DNA from: Adlercreutzia hattorii
GTDB taxonomy: Bacteria; Actinomycetota; Coriobacteriia; Coriobacteriales; Eggerthellaceae
DNA length: 64,000 nt
Direction of reading: 5' to 3'
Assembly (NCBI RefSeq): GCF_011405655.1
Contig: NZ_AP022829.1
Location: forward strand, 977,001-1,041,000
Shown: positions 52,595-59,077 of the stretch, one piece after another
Position numbering within the stretch: the first letter of the stretch is position 1
Layout of the letters: each line of letters starts with the position of its first letter
Notes under the pieces: generated by a model
Told to the model about the DNA's origin: nothing
Databases searched by the model: none
What the model saw: only the letters and a program-made list of their open reading frames with translations
Translations under genes and position numbers: made by a program

Positions 52595-52612
52595 CTTCAG
52601 GAGCGATCCCGT

Positions 52613-52642
52613 GGGGGGGGGCGACCTTGATCGCCCCCCCTT
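52613..52642 (+). terminator. Hairpin after the M20 peptidase gene
   Basis: GGGGGGCGA and TCGCCCCCC pair across CCTTGA, 20 bases after the stop, followed by TT only. It probably terminates transcription despite the short T tract. Confidence 0.6.
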
Positions 52643-52693
52643 GCACGGCCTTTTCCGGCAGGGAGAGCCTTGTCCCGGCACCTGCGGGGACAA

Positions 52694-52881
52694 GGCTCGG
52701 ATTTTGGCAGATGCGGGTACCAGACCGCCTGTTTTGCCAGGCGCAGGGAACCAAACCGCCCGTTTTGGCTGAACTGCGACAAGCCATCTACCAGGCATTA
52801 TAGGAAGTTTTCCCAGATCAGAGCTTCGGGCGAAACTGGAGGTTTGGTACCCGTGGACTGCCAAAATCCGAGGTTTGGTAT
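52694..52881. repeat. 31-bp repeat units in two opposed blocks
   Basis: Three units start at about 52694, 52723 and 52754 on the plus strand, with the pattern A-A/C-CCGCC-GTTTTG-C-G...GGTACCA. Two more units lie inverted at 52832-52881 (for example TACCAAACCTCGGATTTTGG in complement). A 45-bp unrelated stretch separates the blocks. The array fills most of the gap between the peptidase and HTH genes. Confidence 0.6.
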
Positions 52882-52907
52882 CGTCTAAGACAAGATCGCG
52901 TGAAAGG

Positions 52908-53624
52908 CTATGCTTCAGTTTCCGGTATGCGTAGGGATGCGCGTCGGGCTCGCTCTTCGACGAGATCGCCAAAGACGCTGCGAGCAAACTCAAATTCGTT
53001 TTCGTGGCGACGCAAGAAGTTGCGCATGCGCAGGTAGTCGCGCACTTCTACGGCGTCTTCGCTTTCGTCCTCCATGACTTCTTGGGCGAAGGCGCGGGCG
53101 CGTTCGATGGAGTCGGCGTCGTCGGCTTCGAGTTCAGCCACATATTGCGTGCGTTCGCCTGCTGGCGCGTAGAACAGGAAAAGGTTGGCGAACTTCCCTT
53201 GAGGTCCCTCGGGGAGGCCTTGGGCGGCCTTCTGCTCCGCAGCGGCGCGATCGACGAGAATCTTGCCGTTGTCGCGGCGGCCGGGCAGCACGCCCGAGGC
53301 CACCATGGCATTCACGCGGAAGCGACTCACGCCGAGTATCTCGCCAGCTTCGGCAGACGAGATGAGGTCGCTGTCCTCGTCGGCTATCCTTCCCACTTTC
53401 AGGCCAGCTGTTGAAATCGGTGGGGCCAGCTCCAGGCTGCGCTTCGCCTCCTCTAGGGTGGTGAGCTTTTTGAGGGGAAGGTGTGGATAATGGATCTCGA
53501 ACCCTTCGGCGGTTTTCTCGATATAGCCGCCCGGCACGGGGCGGTCGTTGATGGACAGATCCCAGCGCGAGGGCTCGCCCTCGGCGCCGCAATACTCGGT
53601 CCAGGTTCTGACTTGGGTAGACAT
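52908..53624 (-). CDS. Unknown protein with a helix-turn-helix/excisionase-like segment
   Basis: The 238-residue protein has three parts. Residues 1-80 contain a Trp-rich start and a beta segment (YIEKTAEGFEIHYPHLPLKKL). Residues 90-130 (LISSAEAGEILGVSRFRVNAMVASG) look like a MerR/excisionase-type helix-turn-helix. The rest is a charged helical region rich in Glu and Arg. The ATG at 53624 has AGGAGGAACC upstream. It lies just downstream of the U32 gene in the same direction, so co-transcription is possible. The N-terminal part is not recognised. Confidence 0.6.
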   Translation of the reverse strand: MSTQVRTWTEYCGAEGEPSRWDLSINDRPVPGGYIEKTAEGFEIHYPHLPLKKLTTLEEAKRSLELAPPISTAGLKVGRIADEDSDLISSAEAGEILGVSRFRVNAMVASGVLPGRRDNGKILVDRAAAEQKAAQGLPEGPQGKFANLFLFYAPAGERTQYVAELEADDADSIERARAFAQEVMEDESEDAVEVRDYLRMRNFLRRHENEFEFARSVFGDLVEERARRASLRIPETEA

Positions 53625-53641: not shown

Positions 53642-54784
53642 TTACAGAGATTGGAATGGGTTTTCAAGGGGCGTCTTTGAAAAGGAGCGGCAAACAGGGT
53701 AGCTGCCTCCGAATTGCGCTTCGATGGCGGCGATCATCGACGTCTGCCCCATATCCTCGAGCATCTCGCGAGTGATCCAGCCATAGCCCAGAAGCTCGTC
53801 GGCCAATTCGGCACAATAGGCGCAGCGCTGGCATTGTCTGTTGCAAGTGGAGGTGCGTTTGAAGAAATTCGTCCTGCCAAGTGCCTTGTTGTCGATGTGC
53901 GCGCGGAATTCGATGCCGTAATAGCCGATGGAGCTGCACAGCAGATCGAAGAGGTTGCCGTCGTAGGACTCGTCCAAGTAGGCTTCGGTGCAGCGAAGCA
54001 CTTTGCTCGGCATCATATCGCGGCCGACAATTTTGAAGAAGCTTGTGATGCCCTCGTAGCGGCGCATATCTTCGGGCCTGATCCAGTTCGATTTGAAAAT
54101 CTGCCCGGCATCGCGGCCGATGATGTCGCCGCAAGCGAAAGAGAAGGCGTTGCCCTCGTCGCGCTCTTCGTGGGATTTGTGGGAGATCAAGTTCATGTGG
54201 AACTTGCGGTAGGGGCATTTGTTCAAGCACCCCTCGTTTACCATGAGCTTGAGCTCTACGCCAAGTTTCTCGCGGATTTGCCGCAAGAGCTTCAGGTCGC
54301 GGTTGATGCTCGTGTCCACGGTCATAGTGGTGGCACCTGCCAGTGCGAAGGCTTCGGCGCGGGAAAAGCAATCGATGTCAGCGAGGACTGAGGCGCTGAT
54401 TTCAAGGTTCGGACAGGTTTGGCGCGCTTGTTCAATGAGGAAGGGATTGGCCAGTGTCACTGCCTCAATGCCGTGTTGCTCGTGCATGTCGCGAATGAAT
54501 CCGATTTGTCGATTGAGGGTCTCCTCGGCGTACCAATCCCCGCCATCGCACGTGGAATTCATTGTGACGTCGACGCGGATGCCCGCTTCGCGAATGATGC
54601 TGACCACTCCGACGAACTCGTCGAGGGTCGTCACGTTTCCAACGCGGCCCGAACCGGTGATGGCTTGCGGCGCATTCAGGTAGATCTCCCGAATAACGTT
54701 GCCGTTGCGTCTTTGAAGCGCGATCAGCTGTCGCAGCGTGGCGGCGTCTCCGTTATAAGGAACGGAAAACTCGAGTTGAGCCAC
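53642..54784 (-). CDS. U32-family peptidase-like iron-sulfur protein
   Basis: The 380-residue protein resembles the U32 collagenase-like family (TIM-barrel with iron-sulfur cysteines). MVNEGCLNKCPYRKFHMN in the middle and a second cluster, CNRQCQRCAYC, near the C-terminus are the likely ligands. Relatives such as UbiU, UbiV and RlhA act in oxygen-independent hydroxylation of quinones or RNA, but this one is not assigned. A GTG start at 54784 has GGAGGGG upstream. It lies downstream of the flavoprotein gene but behind a strong terminator. Confidence 0.72.
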   Translation of the reverse strand: MAQLEFSVPYNGDAATLRQLIALQRRNGNVIREIYLNAPQAITGSGRVGNVTTLDEFVGVVSIIREAGIRVDVTMNSTCDGGDWYAEETLNRQIGFIRDMHEQHGIEAVTLANPFLIEQARQTCPNLEISASVLADIDCFSRAEAFALAGATTMTVDTSINRDLKLLRQIREKLGVELKLMVNEGCLNKCPYRKFHMNLISHKSHEERDEGNAFSFACGDIIGRDAGQIFKSNWIRPEDMRRYEGITSFFKIVGRDMMPSKVLRCTEAYLDESYDGNLFDLLCSSIGYYGIEFRAHIDNKALGRTNFFKRTSTCNRQCQRCAYCAELADELLGYGWITREMLEDMGQTSMIAAIEAQFGGSYPVCRSFSKTPLENPFQSL

Positions 54785-54811: not shown

Positions 54812-54842
54812 AAAAAGGGCCCGCTTTTCAAGAGCGGGCCCG
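54812..54842 (-). terminator. Terminator of the flavoprotein gene
   Basis: On the minus strand GGGCCCGCT pairs with AGCGGGCCC and is followed by TTTTTCT, 28 bases after the stop. Confidence 0.9.
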
Positions 54843-54869: not shown

Positions 54870-56534
54870 CTAGGCCTCGGTTGCGGCATCCCAGGGTTCG
54901 AGGGCGGCGGCATTGCGGCCGGCGATACGGCCGACGCACCAGTTCTCGGAGCCATTGCCGCCGGTGATGGCGTAAGTGTGGCCATTCATGTTGCCGAACG
55001 AGCCGGCGGAGTACAGGCGCGGAATCGGGTTGCCGCTCGGATCGACGATGTTGGCGTTCTCGTTGCGGCGAGCACCGCCGATGGTATTGCAGATGCCCGG
55101 GTACAGCGGAATGGCGTAGAACGGACCGGTCTCGACCTTTGCCAGCTGCTGGCGGCCGAAGTCCTCGTCAGCGCCCTTGTCGCACAGCTCGTTCCAGCGG
55201 GCAACGGAGGCCTTCAGCTTCTCAGCGTCCATCTTGTCGTCCCATTTGCTGGCGGCGATGTTGGCGGCCAGCTCGTCCAGGGTGGCGCCGGTGGTAATCC
55301 AGCCACGCTCGAGCTCCCATTTGTTGTCGGCAGACCATCCGGCCCAGCCACCGAGTTCGGGATCGAGACCCTCGGTCATGTAGCCGATGCCCATGCCACC
55401 GTTCTCGGTGGCCGCGCCGCCGACCATGCCGCCCCAGGAGCCGCCGTCGAAGGAGGTCTGATCGAAGATGTACCAAGAGGGAATACGGTCGAAATCGCAG
55501 ATCTCCTCATCGAAATTGGCGTAGGGCTTCCAGCCACCATGGGGGCTGAAGATTTCCTCGTTACCCCAGCGTTCGCCTAGGCGAGATACTTTGATGTAAT
55601 TGGGCGTGGGGCTCTGCACGGAAACGCCCCCGGGCACGATCTCCGGATCGTCGAACCAGGCGTCGTCGCCGCCACAGACCTGCTGCATGTGCCACAGGTC
55701 GGCACCCACCTTCTGGGCCATGGTGATGCCGTCGCCGGTGTTGTACTTCCAGCCGTAGAAGCCGCGCATCGGGTAGCACTTCAGATACTTGGCCTGCAGC
55801 TCCTCGTTGAATTCGAAGCCGCCAGTGCACAGGATGACGCCCTTGGAGGCCTTCACGGCCTTGGGGGTCTCGTCGGTTCCCATGAGGGTGTAGCAGCCGA
55901 CGATCTCCTTGGTGACGGGGTTCTGGATGAGCTCCTCGTCGTGGCATTCGAACAGCACCTCGATGCCGCGGTCGGCGCGATGTTGGTCCATGGCCTCGAA
56001 GAAGCCCGCGCCGTAGCCGTCGCCGGAACCGACGTACATCTCCTCGTAGCCAGTGAAGAGGTTGTACTCGGCACGGGGGCTATCGCCCAGGGTGTACTCG
56101 AGGCCGTACTCGTCGGCGTAGTCGGGGTTTTGCACGGCTTCCTCGGCCCAGGCCTGGCAGACCTCCATAGGTGTCTGCCCATGGAAGGCCTCGAAAGCAA
56201 ACTGAGCGGCCGCGTCGGCATCGTGGGGGGCAGTCCACTGACCCATGTTGATAGACGAGGACCCGCCTCCGCGGAACGGCGATTTCTCCAGATAGAGCAC
56301 TTGAGCGCCCTCGTCGAAGGCGGTGATGCCGGCCCACAGGCCCGCTCCGCCGTAGCCGATCACCAAAACGTCGGTCTCGTAGTCCCAGGTCTCGGGCATC
56401 CACTCGGGGGTGCTGCCAGTCTCAGAGAGCGCAGCGTCGTTGTTGGCGCACCCGGCCAGGGCGGCGGCGCCGGCAGCGCCGGCGGCAGCCAGGGCGGAGC
56501 CCTTCAAAAAAGAGCGGCGAGATACTTCCTCCAT
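54870..56534 (-). CDS. Tat-exported FAD-dependent reductase (fumarate reductase/Cgr2-like)
   Basis: The 554-residue protein begins with a twin-arginine signal (SRRSFLKG) followed by a hydrophobic stretch and a lipobox-like ALAGCA, so it is probably a lipid-anchored extracytoplasmic protein. The FAD-binding segment is VLVIGYGGAGLWAGITAF. The C-terminal part has the PLYPGICNTIGGARRN and AGSFGNMNGHTYAITGGNGSEN segments of the flavocytochrome c fumarate reductase superfamily. Relatives in Eggerthella reduce varied substrates (for example Cgr2 and cardiac glycosides); this substrate is unknown. It follows the cytochrome gene, its likely electron donor. GGAGGAAAAC precedes the ATG. Confidence 0.88.
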   Translation of the reverse strand: MEEVSRRSFLKGSALAAAGAAGAAALAGCANNDAALSETGSTPEWMPETWDYETDVLVIGYGGAGLWAGITAFDEGAQVLYLEKSPFRGGGSSSINMGQWTAPHDADAAAQFAFEAFHGQTPMEVCQAWAEEAVQNPDYADEYGLEYTLGDSPRAEYNLFTGYEEMYVGSGDGYGAGFFEAMDQHRADRGIEVLFECHDEELIQNPVTKEIVGCYTLMGTDETPKAVKASKGVILCTGGFEFNEELQAKYLKCYPMRGFYGWKYNTGDGITMAQKVGADLWHMQQVCGGDDAWFDDPEIVPGGVSVQSPTPNYIKVSRLGERWGNEEIFSPHGGWKPYANFDEEICDFDRIPSWYIFDQTSFDGGSWGGMVGGAATENGGMGIGYMTEGLDPELGGWAGWSADNKWELERGWITTGATLDELAANIAASKWDDKMDAEKLKASVARWNELCDKGADEDFGRQQLAKVETGPFYAIPLYPGICNTIGGARRNENANIVDPSGNPIPRLYSAGSFGNMNGHTYAITGGNGSENWCVGRIAGRNAAALEPWDAATEA

Positions 56535-56609
56535 GTTTTCCTCCTTAATAAGGCTTGCTATGTCATCCGCCGGAGTGCGGATGATGCTGAGATGGGAATG
56601 GCCGCACTC

Positions 56610-56641
56610 GGACCCCGTAGGGGGAGGGATTGACGGGGTCC
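56610..56641. other. Hairpin between cytochrome and flavoprotein genes
   Basis: GGACCCCGT and ACGGGGTCC form a perfect 9-bp stem in the 141-base gap between the two genes. No T tract follows on the minus strand. It could set the ratio of cytochrome to flavoprotein mRNA. Confidence 0.5.
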
Positions 56642-56675
56642 GGGCGGAACCGGAGTCAATTAAATGCGCCGGGCC

Positions 56676-57308
56676 TTACTCGTGGCAGGTGTTGCACTCG
56701 TAGACGTCCATGTGGTGGCAGCCCTTGCATGCCTTCTTTGCCGTGTCCTCGATGGTGTCGTCGGAATGCATGCTGTGACAGCTGCCGCAGTCGATGGTCG
56801 TATGATCTTCGTTCTCGGGCAGGGCGTGGGGGTTCACTACCGTGCCGTTGGCGTCGGTGAGGATGGCGCAGGCTTCAGTCTTGGCGGCCAGATCCTCCTG
56901 GCTGCCGTGGCAACCGCTGCTGAAGCAGGCGGTGGTATCGATGGTGGTCTTTTTCAGCCGTTTGGGCGTCTTGTCGCCGAACTGCACGCCATCGTGGGCG
57001 GTCGCCAGGCTGTCGATGTCGCTATGGCAGGTGGTGCACTCCTGCGTCGCATGGTTAGATGCGGGCATCGTCGCGTCGCCGAGCGAGTCGCCCTCGGTGC
57101 TGTGGCAGGTGGTGCAGTCGGCATCTGCGGAGAACGCGAAGTCCCCTGTCATTGCGGCGTTCTCGTCGGCTTCAGCCTGTGAGCCGCTGCCCGTTTCGCT
57201 GAGATCTGCCGTTTTCGGGGCGCAGCCGACAGTGCCCAGGGACATAAGTGCGATGACACCCGCGACAGCGGAGGCAAGAACGATCTTGCGCAGGGATACG
57301 TGAGCCAT
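56676..57308 (-). CDS. Multihaem c-type cytochrome lipoprotein
   Basis: The 210-residue protein has a lipoprotein signal ending in GTVGC. It carries five CXXCH haem sites (CTTCH twice, CGSCH, CKGCH, CNTCH) and one CX4CH site (CFSSGCH). Several extra His residues could be distal ligands. It resembles small tetra- to hexahaem donors of the flavocytochrome c fumarate reductase type and of Cgr1-like partners. It would pass electrons from the membrane quinone pool to the flavoprotein encoded next. GGAAGGAGAGGAGC precedes the ATG. The promoter lies in the 272-base gap shared with the divergent LuxR gene. Confidence 0.9.
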   Translation of the reverse strand: MAHVSLRKIVLASAVAGVIALMSLGTVGCAPKTADLSETGSGSQAEADENAAMTGDFAFSADADCTTCHSTEGDSLGDATMPASNHATQECTTCHSDIDSLATAHDGVQFGDKTPKRLKKTTIDTTACFSSGCHGSQEDLAAKTEACAILTDANGTVVNPHALPENEDHTTIDCGSCHSMHSDDTIEDTAKKACKGCHHMDVYECNTCHE

Positions 57309-57400
57309 GCTCCTCTCCTTCCAAGTGGCTCCGGCGGCTCTCTCGTCGTCCCGCCGGATTGAATTCGATGGGCGGCATTGTGCGTCCTCGTCGCCGAAAT

Positions 57401-57463
57401 GCCATCATCCAAAGCCGATGCTTCGCGGGAGGAGACAGATTATTTTGCTGCCAAGCCATCATC
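57401..57463. promoter_or_regulatory. Paired direct repeats in the cytochrome/LuxR gap
   Basis: GCCATCATC followed by two bases and AA occurs at 57401 and again at 57455, 54 bases apart (about five helical turns). Spacing and position suit a regulator-binding pair, but the match is short. Confidence 0.3.
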
Positions 57464-57536
57464 TGAAAAGGATGAAAGACCAGGTGGGATAAGGGATGAC
57501 GAAGGACAGATTGTGGGTGGTTCTCGGCCTTGCCCT

Positions 57537-57545
57537 TGCTATACT
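57537..57545 (+). promoter_or_regulatory. Promoter of the LuxR-type gene
   Basis: The extended -10 TGCTATACT lies 36 bases before the start codon. No good -35 is visible. Confidence 0.5.
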
Positions 57546-57580
57546 GCCCTTGACCGCACATCGATACGGGAGGGTCGGCG

Positions 57581-59077
57581 ATGGTAGGAATTACGAAGGA
57601 CGATGGCGCGCTACCGTCTCAGGGGCTAGGAGGGGCTTCCGAGAAGAGCGGGCTTTTGGTGGTTCTCGGGTATATTGGCGCCCAAACGTGGCTTCCCATT
57701 GTCGGCGTGGTAGCCGATATGTATCGCGGGGGCGATCTGGCGCTGTCGGGGCTGAACCCCCTTCTCTTTTCTTATCTTGTTGTTTTGGGGACGACGGCGT
57801 GCGCAGCGTCTTTCGCGCGTTGGAGGGACGAATGGTCTCGAGGCGTCTTCGGGGCGTTTGCGGGCGCGTTGGCTGCCATCGCCGGCGCAGCGCTTCTGCT
57901 CGTTCCCGAACGGGGCGCCTCTGTGGCAGTTGCGGTTCTGCGCGTCGTGTCCGGCGCGCTGCTCGGCTTGGGCGGCGGTTTGCTCACCATGGTATGGAGC
58001 GAACGCTTTGGACGGCTGGATGCTCCGGCGCGCTCCCGGGTTTCGTTTCTCGTCGTACTCGCTGCCTGCCTGCTGGCGGCCTTCGCTCAGTCCATAGGCA
58101 TCCACTGGTTGCTGCTTGCAGTGGTCGCCGTGTTCTCGGCGGTGTCCAGCGCCTTGTTCATGGTGTCGGCGTCTCGCGGTGAGGCTCCTGCTAAAACCTC
58201 TTCGCCAGTGACGCATCTGCAGGGGGCTTTTGTTCGCATTATCGCGTCCTATGGCCTGTTCGGCCTTGTCTTCGCCCTGATGATCACGCAGTTTCTCATT
58301 GCGCGTCACGGTCACGCCCTGTCGTGGACATGGCTTTTGAGCCTTTCGGGCGTCGTTATCTCCCTCGTGGTCGAGGTTGTGGCAAAGGCGCTGCTCAAAC
58401 AGGGATTCAGCTGGCTGCTCCTTCTACGCTTTGCGGCCATACCGATACTTGTGGCTTTTTACCCCTTCGATGCCGGAAGCGAATTCTCCCTGCGCTTTGC
58501 CATGGGGGCCTCGGCGGTGGCTCTGTGGGTGTACCTTTCCTTGGTGGGTGGCATCGAGGCGGAGGCGGCCGGGCAGATTCGCGTACCTTTTGCTATCGTG
58601 CGGGGTGTGGCTCTGGGCGCGCTTGCTCTGGGCGCGGCTTTGGGGTCGAGTTTGGCGCTTATGATGGAGAGCCTCGATCTCCAGGGCCACGTGAGCGTGA
58701 CGGCCATCGCGGCCATGGTGCTTGCTGTTATCGCGTCGGATATGGTGTTGACGCGCGGAAGTTTGGCGCGGGCCTACAAGAGGGCCGTAACTGCCGCAGG
58801 GGGCAAAGAGGCGGAGTCTGCTGACGGCGGTACGCCTTTCGATGAGCGGGTCGCGGCCGTGGCTGAGGTCTACGCGCTGACTGAGCGAGAGGCAGAGGTT
58901 CTGGGCATTCTGGCGCGCGGGCATGGGCTGGGTCGCGTTCAGGAGGTGCTTTTCATTGCCGAGGGAACCGCCATTACTCATCGTCGGCACATTTATCAGA
59001 AGCTCGATGTCCATTCCAAGGCCGAGCTCATCGATCTCGTCTCCGGCTTCGGAGATGATGGGATAGATGACGATTGA
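57581..59077 (+). CDS. LuxR-type regulator with a 12-helix membrane domain
   Basis: The 498-residue protein has about twelve hydrophobic helices (residues 20-395) arranged like a transporter, then a linker and a C-terminal LuxR helix-turn-helix. In the latter, LTEREAEVLGILARGHG and ITHRRHIYQKLDVHSKAELIDLV match the GerE-type fold. Membrane-embedded LuxR proteins of this kind are numerous in Eggerthellaceae and usually sit next to reductase genes. It probably senses the reductase substrate or a related signal and controls the divergent cytochrome-flavoprotein operon. GGGAGGG lies upstream of the ATG. Confidence 0.87.
   Translation: MVGITKDDGALPSQGLGGASEKSGLLVVLGYIGAQTWLPIVGVVADMYRGGDLALSGLNPLLFSYLVVLGTTACAASFARWRDEWSRGVFGAFAGALAAIAGAALLLVPERGASVAVAVLRVVSGALLGLGGGLLTMVWSERFGRLDAPARSRVSFLVVLAACLLAAFAQSIGIHWLLLAVVAVFSAVSSALFMVSASRGEAPAKTSSPVTHLQGAFVRIIASYGLFGLVFALMITQFLIARHGHALSWTWLLSLSGVVISLVVEVVAKALLKQGFSWLLLLRFAAIPILVAFYPFDAGSEFSLRFAMGASAVALWVYLSLVGGIEAEAAGQIRVPFAIVRGVALGALALGAALGSSLALMMESLDLQGHVSVTAIAAMVLAVIASDMVLTRGSLARAYKRAVTAAGGKEAESADGGTPFDERVAAVAEVYALTEREAEVLGILARGHGLGRVQEVLFIAEGTAITHRRHIYQKLDVHSKAELIDLVSGFGDDGIDDD

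Follow-up and report, generated by a model that had tools for sequence, protein, structure and literature searches.

The subject of this analysis is a five-gene locus of Adlercreutzia hattorii, contained in a window of 64,000 nucleotides (G000:C1:977001-1041000) from the complete 2.908-Mb genome; positions given without a sequence name are those of the window. Four of the genes lie on the minus strand, and the fifth, which encodes a membrane regulator, is divergent from them. The regulator, here called LuxR (57581-59077, plus strand, 498 residues), has about 12 transmembrane (TM) segments, counted as 12 hydrophobic segments by simple hydropathy, and a C-terminal GerE helix-turn-helix domain at residues 433-486 (43 bits). 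CYT (56676-57308, minus strand, 210 residues) is a lipoprotein cytochrome of family Cytochrom_c3_2, with five CXXCH motifs, one CX4CH motif and a lipobox-like VGC. FLAV (54870-56534, minus strand, 554 residues) is an FAD_binding_2 flavoprotein (104 bits) and predicted respiratory reductase; its N-terminus contains SRRSFLKG, a signal of the twin-arginine translocation (Tat) type, followed by LAGC. Next comes U32 (53642-54784, minus strand, 380 residues), a protein of Peptidase_U32 fold that scores 25.3 bits with PF01136 (cut-off 22.4) and starts at GTG 54784, after the ribosome site GGAAGGAGGGG. The last gene, HTH (52908-53624, minus strand), encodes a small DNA-binding-type protein of 238 residues with a conserved N-terminal part, where the match to HTH_17 (E=4.6e-4) falls below the Pfam cut-off. 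An alternative start for U32 at ATG 54853, 16 bp after FLAV, would have allowed simple co-transcription; it was rejected, as the extension contains a stop codon in two copies (one each in G002 and G006) and is absent from the remaining ones.

An earlier note on this DNA, made from the sequence alone, had described the first three genes as a compact respiratory-reductase unit composed of a Tat-exported flavoprotein, a multihaem lipoprotein cytochrome and a divergent membrane LuxR of its own. The trio is real and each of these assignments stands, the reductase role as a prediction, but the unit is larger than was described, and U32 and HTH, its most distinctive parts, had been overlooked. Orthologues of the trio are found in other genera, and ratios of non-synonymous to synonymous substitution rates (dN/dS), from comparisons with two relatives, are 0.045-0.167; the three are therefore real genes and not chance frames. 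The ratio is 0.045-0.063 for FLAV and 0.067-0.071 for U32 (S12 control rows, being out of frame, were left out of this set). All six haem motifs of CYT are conserved in the five copies of the block described below, and no match of CYT to a solved structure is better than E=0.3. The stretches fetched from the A. hattorii genome hold 44 flavoproteins of FLAV's family, 28 of them with a neighbouring LuxR of at least eight TM segments and four with a neighbouring cytochrome of at least three CXXCH motifs. FLAV is the only one that combines a cytochrome, a TM LuxR and a recognised Tat motif, although the Tat test is an undercount because start codons were assigned mechanically.

Across 395 genomes of the order Coriobacteriales, FLAV is found in six at E<=1e-200. 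A search with U32 at E<=1e-15 returns seven genomes; the six that reach E<=1e-200 are the same six, and the seventh (G500) reaches only 1.4e-37, in a different gene context. The carriers are three Adlercreutzia (the window, L039 and L040), Raoultibacter timonensis (L067), the Eggerthella-genus genome G655 (L172) and G036 (L041), a Coriobacteriales genome of another family. U32 adjoins FLAV in five of the six and lies one gene away in G036. In all carriers except G036, the genes form a LuxR-CYT-FLAV-U32-HTH block between a peptidase gene and rpsL, with LuxR orthologues in the other block copies at 81, 68, 44 and 43% identity; HTH orthologues in the five other block or cluster copies are 45-81% identical. 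To find empty sites, the peptidase was searched in 11 cluster-free genomes and nine stretches were fetched, of which eight reach rpsL (L187, where the contig ends before rpsL, G003, with the peptidase at a contig edge, and G008, with no peptidase match, were left out). At all eight informative sites rpsL comes directly after the peptidase and the five genes are absent from the interval, which indicates that the five were gained or lost as one block; these comparisons place its edges at about 52.6 and 59.1-59.2 kb. The empty sites fit ancient presence followed by losses as well as repeated insertion at one site, and cannot tell the two apart. In wider collections, a scan of genome contigs gave nine U32 loci, and a 396-genome sample of the phylum gave mostly short, weak matches. 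Exclusive co-occurrence and proximity of U32 and FLAV, and presence or absence of all five genes as a block, argue that U32 and HTH belong to the unit.

The region between CYT and LuxR contains two operator-like 18-mers of the form CATCATC-N7-GATG, copy 1 (CATCATCCAAAGCCGATG, 57403-57420, plus strand) and copy 2 (CATCATCTGAAAAGGATG, 57457-57474, plus strand), 54 bp apart. Beyond them, on the side of the LuxR gene and upstream of its start, stands a conserved TATACT (57540-57545, plus strand), which is -10-like by its consensus; the sequence GCTATACT is invariant in the three Adlercreutzia copies and is also present in Raoultibacter and Eggerthella. Five copies of the block, from three genera, conserve the 18-mers, copy 2 more loosely in Raoultibacter and Eggerthella. 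In the window, CATCATCYRNNNNNGATG has two matches versus 0.01 expected, and the narrower pattern CATCATCYRAANNSGATG has two matches genome-wide, both at this locus, versus none for its reversed control. Since the pattern was derived from the sites themselves, this uniqueness indicates a private site and is not proof of binding. Just 3' of FLAV is a terminator-like hairpin (54817-54841, minus strand; 9-pair stem, TTTTTC tail). Each of the six copies has a hairpin at this place, and in four of them its tail is T-rich. Terminator-like sites in the region number 6 versus 6.9 expected from shuffles, so that the hairpin is weak evidence when taken alone. At the far side of the locus, the interval from the HTH gene to the peptidase holds some 300 bp of strongly palindromic sequence (52600-52910), with a predicted RNA fold of about -159 kcal/mol and no aligning counterpart in the neighbouring relatives L039 and L040.

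The AlphaFold2 (AF2) model of U32 has a predicted local distance difference test score (pLDDT) of 83.2, and its first match is the U32 structure 5D88 (E 1.2e-11, TMt 0.74), which together with the PF01136 score places the protein in the U32 fold. Its conserved cysteines fall into a group of three (C186, C190 and C218) and a group of four (C314, C318, C321 and C324). The corresponding pattern, CX3C, a middle cysteine and CX3-4CX2CXYC, is common to all 15 listed members of the subfamily, of which six come from the clusters described here and nine are distant, from Actinomycetota and DPANN archaea; the list does not include L072, L073 or the second copies of G076. The cysteine motif of U32 oxidases is CX6CX15CX3/4C (PMC6747719), and CX6CX15CX3C occurs in none of the 15. 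Conversely, the 3+4 pattern is missing from Escherichia coli UbiU, UbiV and RlhA, the last of which has the classic motif. Section 15 of PMC6747719 describes four-cysteine motifs for eight of ten U32 families, and the 3+4 pattern is not among them. Among the distant relatives, two tandem 3+4-cysteine U32 genes in L175:3162-15496 stand amid genes for UbiA, a UbiE-like methyltransferase and a polyprenyl synthetase, along with three genes of the B12-binding/radical S-adenosylmethionine (SAM) type; the cluster has the look of an unusual one for quinones or prenyl lipids. In DPANN archaea (L069:6186-9353, L070:6841-10026 and L071:7970-11221), a tandem U32 pair directly follows a radical SAM gene, a call checked with Pfam (with SPASM) in L069 and made from similar N-termini in L070 and L071. 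As gene context, these neighbourhoods suggest that the subfamily may carry out redox chemistry on small molecules or lipids.

Could U32 and HTH instead be passengers at the rpsL site, with some unrelated role such as RNA or quinone modification, beside an ordinary three-gene flavin reductase unit? The hairpin that separates FLAV from U32 would fit such an arrangement, as would the 15 sister flavoproteins described below, which work without an adjacent U32, and the distant U32 pair among UbiA, UbiE-like and polyprenyl synthetase genes. Characterised U32 enzymes, moreover, modify RNA or quinones (PMC11574389). However, no U32 without FLAV was found at E<=1e-200 among the 395 genomes, FLAV, HTH and U32 stay together in G036 despite another locus and another order, and the block boundaries enclose both U32 and HTH. 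We therefore regard passenger status as unlikely, while still giving it some weight.

For FLAV, the question is which acceptor its active site would suit. The AF2 model (pLDDT 83.7) has cyclohexanone dehydrogenase (CDH), urocanate reductase (UrdA), flavocytochrome c3 (Fcc3) and 3-ketosteroid dehydrogenase (KSTD) as top Foldseek matches. Root-mean-square deviations (rmsd) are 3.1-3.4 to KSTD and CDH, 4.2-6.5 to UrdA and Fcc3, and 5.0 to 4at0. A reductase of fumarate or urocanate type, acting on a small unsaturated carboxylate, might be expected, because Fcc3 and UrdA are the best sequence matches among solved structures, and UrdA has the top Z score in VIA-align, 35.3, although the scores for UrdA, Fcc3, KSTD and CDH (Z 35 to 32) are tied within about 2-3. 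The residues tell otherwise. The catalytic Arg (Fcc3 R402), the His of HHTMGG and the Arg of HGxNRLGGN are functional residues of fumarate and urocanate reductases (R402 is also named in PDB titles among the Foldseek matches of FLAV); in FLAV, residues 323-340 and 511-531 are free of Arg, and the segment PGICNTIGG contains no His. As a positive control, a paralogue at 1.664 Mb keeps both HHTMGG and HGENRLGGN in the same alignment. A fumarate- or urocanate-type activity seems to us distinctly improbable.

What FLAV does retain is an H-x-Y near the C-terminus, conserved, with the Tyr (Y521) in the segment GHTYAITGGN. Aligned by hand, Y521 fits the C-terminal catalytic Tyr of KSTD (Y487), in poorly modelled surroundings. 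The second catalytic Tyr site of KSTD and CDH was not found in FLAV, where the corresponding region is presumably SPHxGW. The lack of carboxylate-binding or catalytic arginines, along with the KSTD/CDH-like H-x-Y, points to an enone-like acceptor, and with moderate confidence we predict a neutral alpha,beta-unsaturated or cyclic-enone-like compound rather than a dicarboxylate or urocanate. As for the individual substrate, we agree with the earlier note that it cannot be read from sequence.

The tree of flavoproteins (IQ-TREE, 69 rows, with four rows from the same genome excluded beforehand for bad alignment) groups the U32-linked FLAVs, five of the six copies being included, into one clade with 100/100 support. 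The 15 sister FLAVs are 47-53% identical to FLAV; 12 have an adjacent CYT, and none has an adjacent U32. Twenty-one positions set the U32-linked proteins apart from these sisters, and ten of them lie within three active-site segments: G333, K336, I481, I485, R489, A522, G528, W532, C533 and V534.

The same tree bears on the claim of the earlier note that the unit is of Cgr type, after the digoxin reductase pair Cgr1/Cgr2, a claim that did not survive. The Cgr2 reference was read from the Eggerthella lenta DSM 2243 genome (3,632,260 bp) around the published variant position; it agrees with the published protein in Y333, in all six reported cysteines and in having 16 cysteines in its mature form (PMC5953540). 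FLAV and Cgr2 are 26.5% identical by BLAST and 31% over 460 aligned columns, and of the six cysteines on which Cgr2 activity depends FLAV has one (Cgr2 C327 over FLAV C287). In the tree, Cgr2 pairs (100/99) with own_32795 (G000:C1:32795-34423, plus strand, outside the window), and FLAV lies in another, well-supported clade; own_32795 is 39% identical to Cgr2 over 502 columns, has three of the six cysteines and is the nearest Cgr2 relative in the A. hattorii genome. Cgr1, the partner of Cgr2, is NapC/NirT-like; its match with CYT covers 131 residues at 23% (E=0.005, as a single comparison), and CYT carries a lipoprotein signal. CYT and Cgr1 are reported to share PF14537 (PMC5953540), but have little sequence in common. 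A true Cgr-type reductase for a cardenolide-like compound or steroid lactone is therefore very improbable, since the broad family, Tat export, a PF14537 cytochrome and a nearby TM LuxR are shared but clade, identity, cysteines, the weak Cgr1 match and the better Cgr2 relative elsewhere in the genome all speak against it.

The explanation we favour, and consider somewhat likelier than its competitors combined, is a five-gene, separately regulated unit for anaerobic respiration, in which LuxR would control the use of a neutral unsaturated acceptor and a cytoplasmic iron-sulphur (Fe-S) U32 protein would act on the same chemistry. The membrane LuxR would sense the acceptor and act at the two operator-like 18-mers in the intergenic region from which its own gene and the other four diverge. 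Electrons would pass from the menaquinol pool through the anchored six-haem CYT to the flavin adenine dinucleotide (FAD) of Tat-exported FLAV, which, judging from family and signals, would reduce the organic acceptor outside the cytoplasm. In the cytoplasm U32, for which two Fe-S clusters are predicted, one on three cysteines and one on four, may perform a redox step on the acceptor compound, on its product or on one of the system's cofactors, and the hairpin after FLAV would hold U32 and HTH at lower levels. A more specific version, a two-compartment anaerobic pathway in which FLAV reduces the acceptor outside and U32 catalyses oxygen-independent hydroxylation, or the reverse reaction, dehydroxylation, of the compound or its product, is speculative, and we would not expect it to hold. 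If it did, U32 would be the first enzyme of its fold in respiratory or xenobiotic catabolism as opposed to quinone or RNA synthesis, and would represent a two-cluster (3+4 cysteine) subfamily not described before.

Several observations weigh against the five-gene explanation. In the window, the hairpin that separates FLAV from U32 matches a terminator well, so simple co-transcription is not given; with about 30 bp between the hairpin tail and the U32 start, U32 expression would depend on readthrough or on a promoter within FLAV. Distant U32 relatives are located without flavoproteins (L069-L071, L174 and L175). The six copies are not independent, since five are at the same chromosomal site and three are from a single genus. 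In G036 (L041), the 19.9 kb read contain no multihaem cytochrome, and HTH and U32 are in reversed order, though FLAV-HTH-U32 stay together at this separate locus; the LuxR gene there (L041:11921-13537, minus strand) has one in-frame stop, at codon 263. As regards the acceptor, the tied Z scores mean that the whole fold does not decide the substrate class, and the FLAV model falls below pLDDT 50 at residues 517-520 and 522-525.

Further features of G036 can be noted. A highly similar, intact LuxR gene lies at L041:16275-17891; for the stop-bearing gene, decay, duplication and assembly error are alternatives. No CYT-like gene was found in the stretches read around FLAV-type genes of this genome (L041, L048, L049 and L052), and the electron route may differ there. 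The genome has 249 first-look flavoprotein candidates.

Eggerthellaceae genomes contain dozens of orphan flavin reductases each, whose substrates are not told by sequence. Here, strictly linked extra genes, clean presence or absence and private operators make the unit assignable by comparing carriers with non-carriers, and the unit is a genetically tractable entry to the U32 subfamily. In the literature searched, which held few subscription papers, we found no description that links a U32 gene with a flavin respiratory reductase, so that an earlier account is possible.

Units of a LuxR and a flavin enzyme are a known class (PMC9734109, PMC5953540, PMC11574389, PMC6747719, PMC13060105, PMC10234575, PMC11334425), and the FLAV-CYT-LuxR trio belongs to a class already known from Eggerthellaceae; E. 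lenta DSM 2243 has 83 TM LuxRs, 50 of them near flavin enzymes (PMC9734109). Cgr1/Cgr2 (Koppel 2018, PMC5953540) resemble the present unit in superfamily, Tat export and a cytochrome partner, and differ in clade, cysteines, gene content and, apparently, cytochrome type. CDH (8AM8) and the KSTDs have the lowest rmsd, with Z scores tied to those of UrdA and Fcc3, and appear to share the fold and the C-terminal H-x-Y, but are about 20-25% identical and are dehydrogenases, whereas the present unit looks reductive. The U32 oxidases UbiU, UbiV, RlhA and TrhP (PMC6747719, PMC11574389) share the U32 fold and conserved cysteines likely to bind Fe-S; the subfamily found here differs by its 3+4 pattern and by the absence of CX6CX15CX3C. 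A [4Fe-4S] cluster and prephenate-dependent hydroxylation are hallmarks of U32 oxidases. Also among the closest systems is a sister clade of FLAV+CYT+LuxR units, present twice in E. lenta DSM 2243 (L157) and in related genomes, with FLAV 47-53% and CYT about 37-42% identical and LuxR adjacent; these units are without U32 or HTH, and their active-site segments differ in residues. With the Eggerthellaceae flavin respiratory reductases of Dong 2022 (PMC9734109), the locus shares a Tat-signal FAD_binding_2 enzyme, here with a haem carrier alongside, an adjacent 10-12-TM LuxR, here with N-terminal TM helices and a C-terminal LuxR DNA-binding domain, and strain-variable occurrence. Compared with those units, it adds U32 and HTH tied to one flavoprotein clade and a private operator pair; it is a respiratory unit of a known kind, larger than the earlier note described and set apart by what it adds, and not Cgr.

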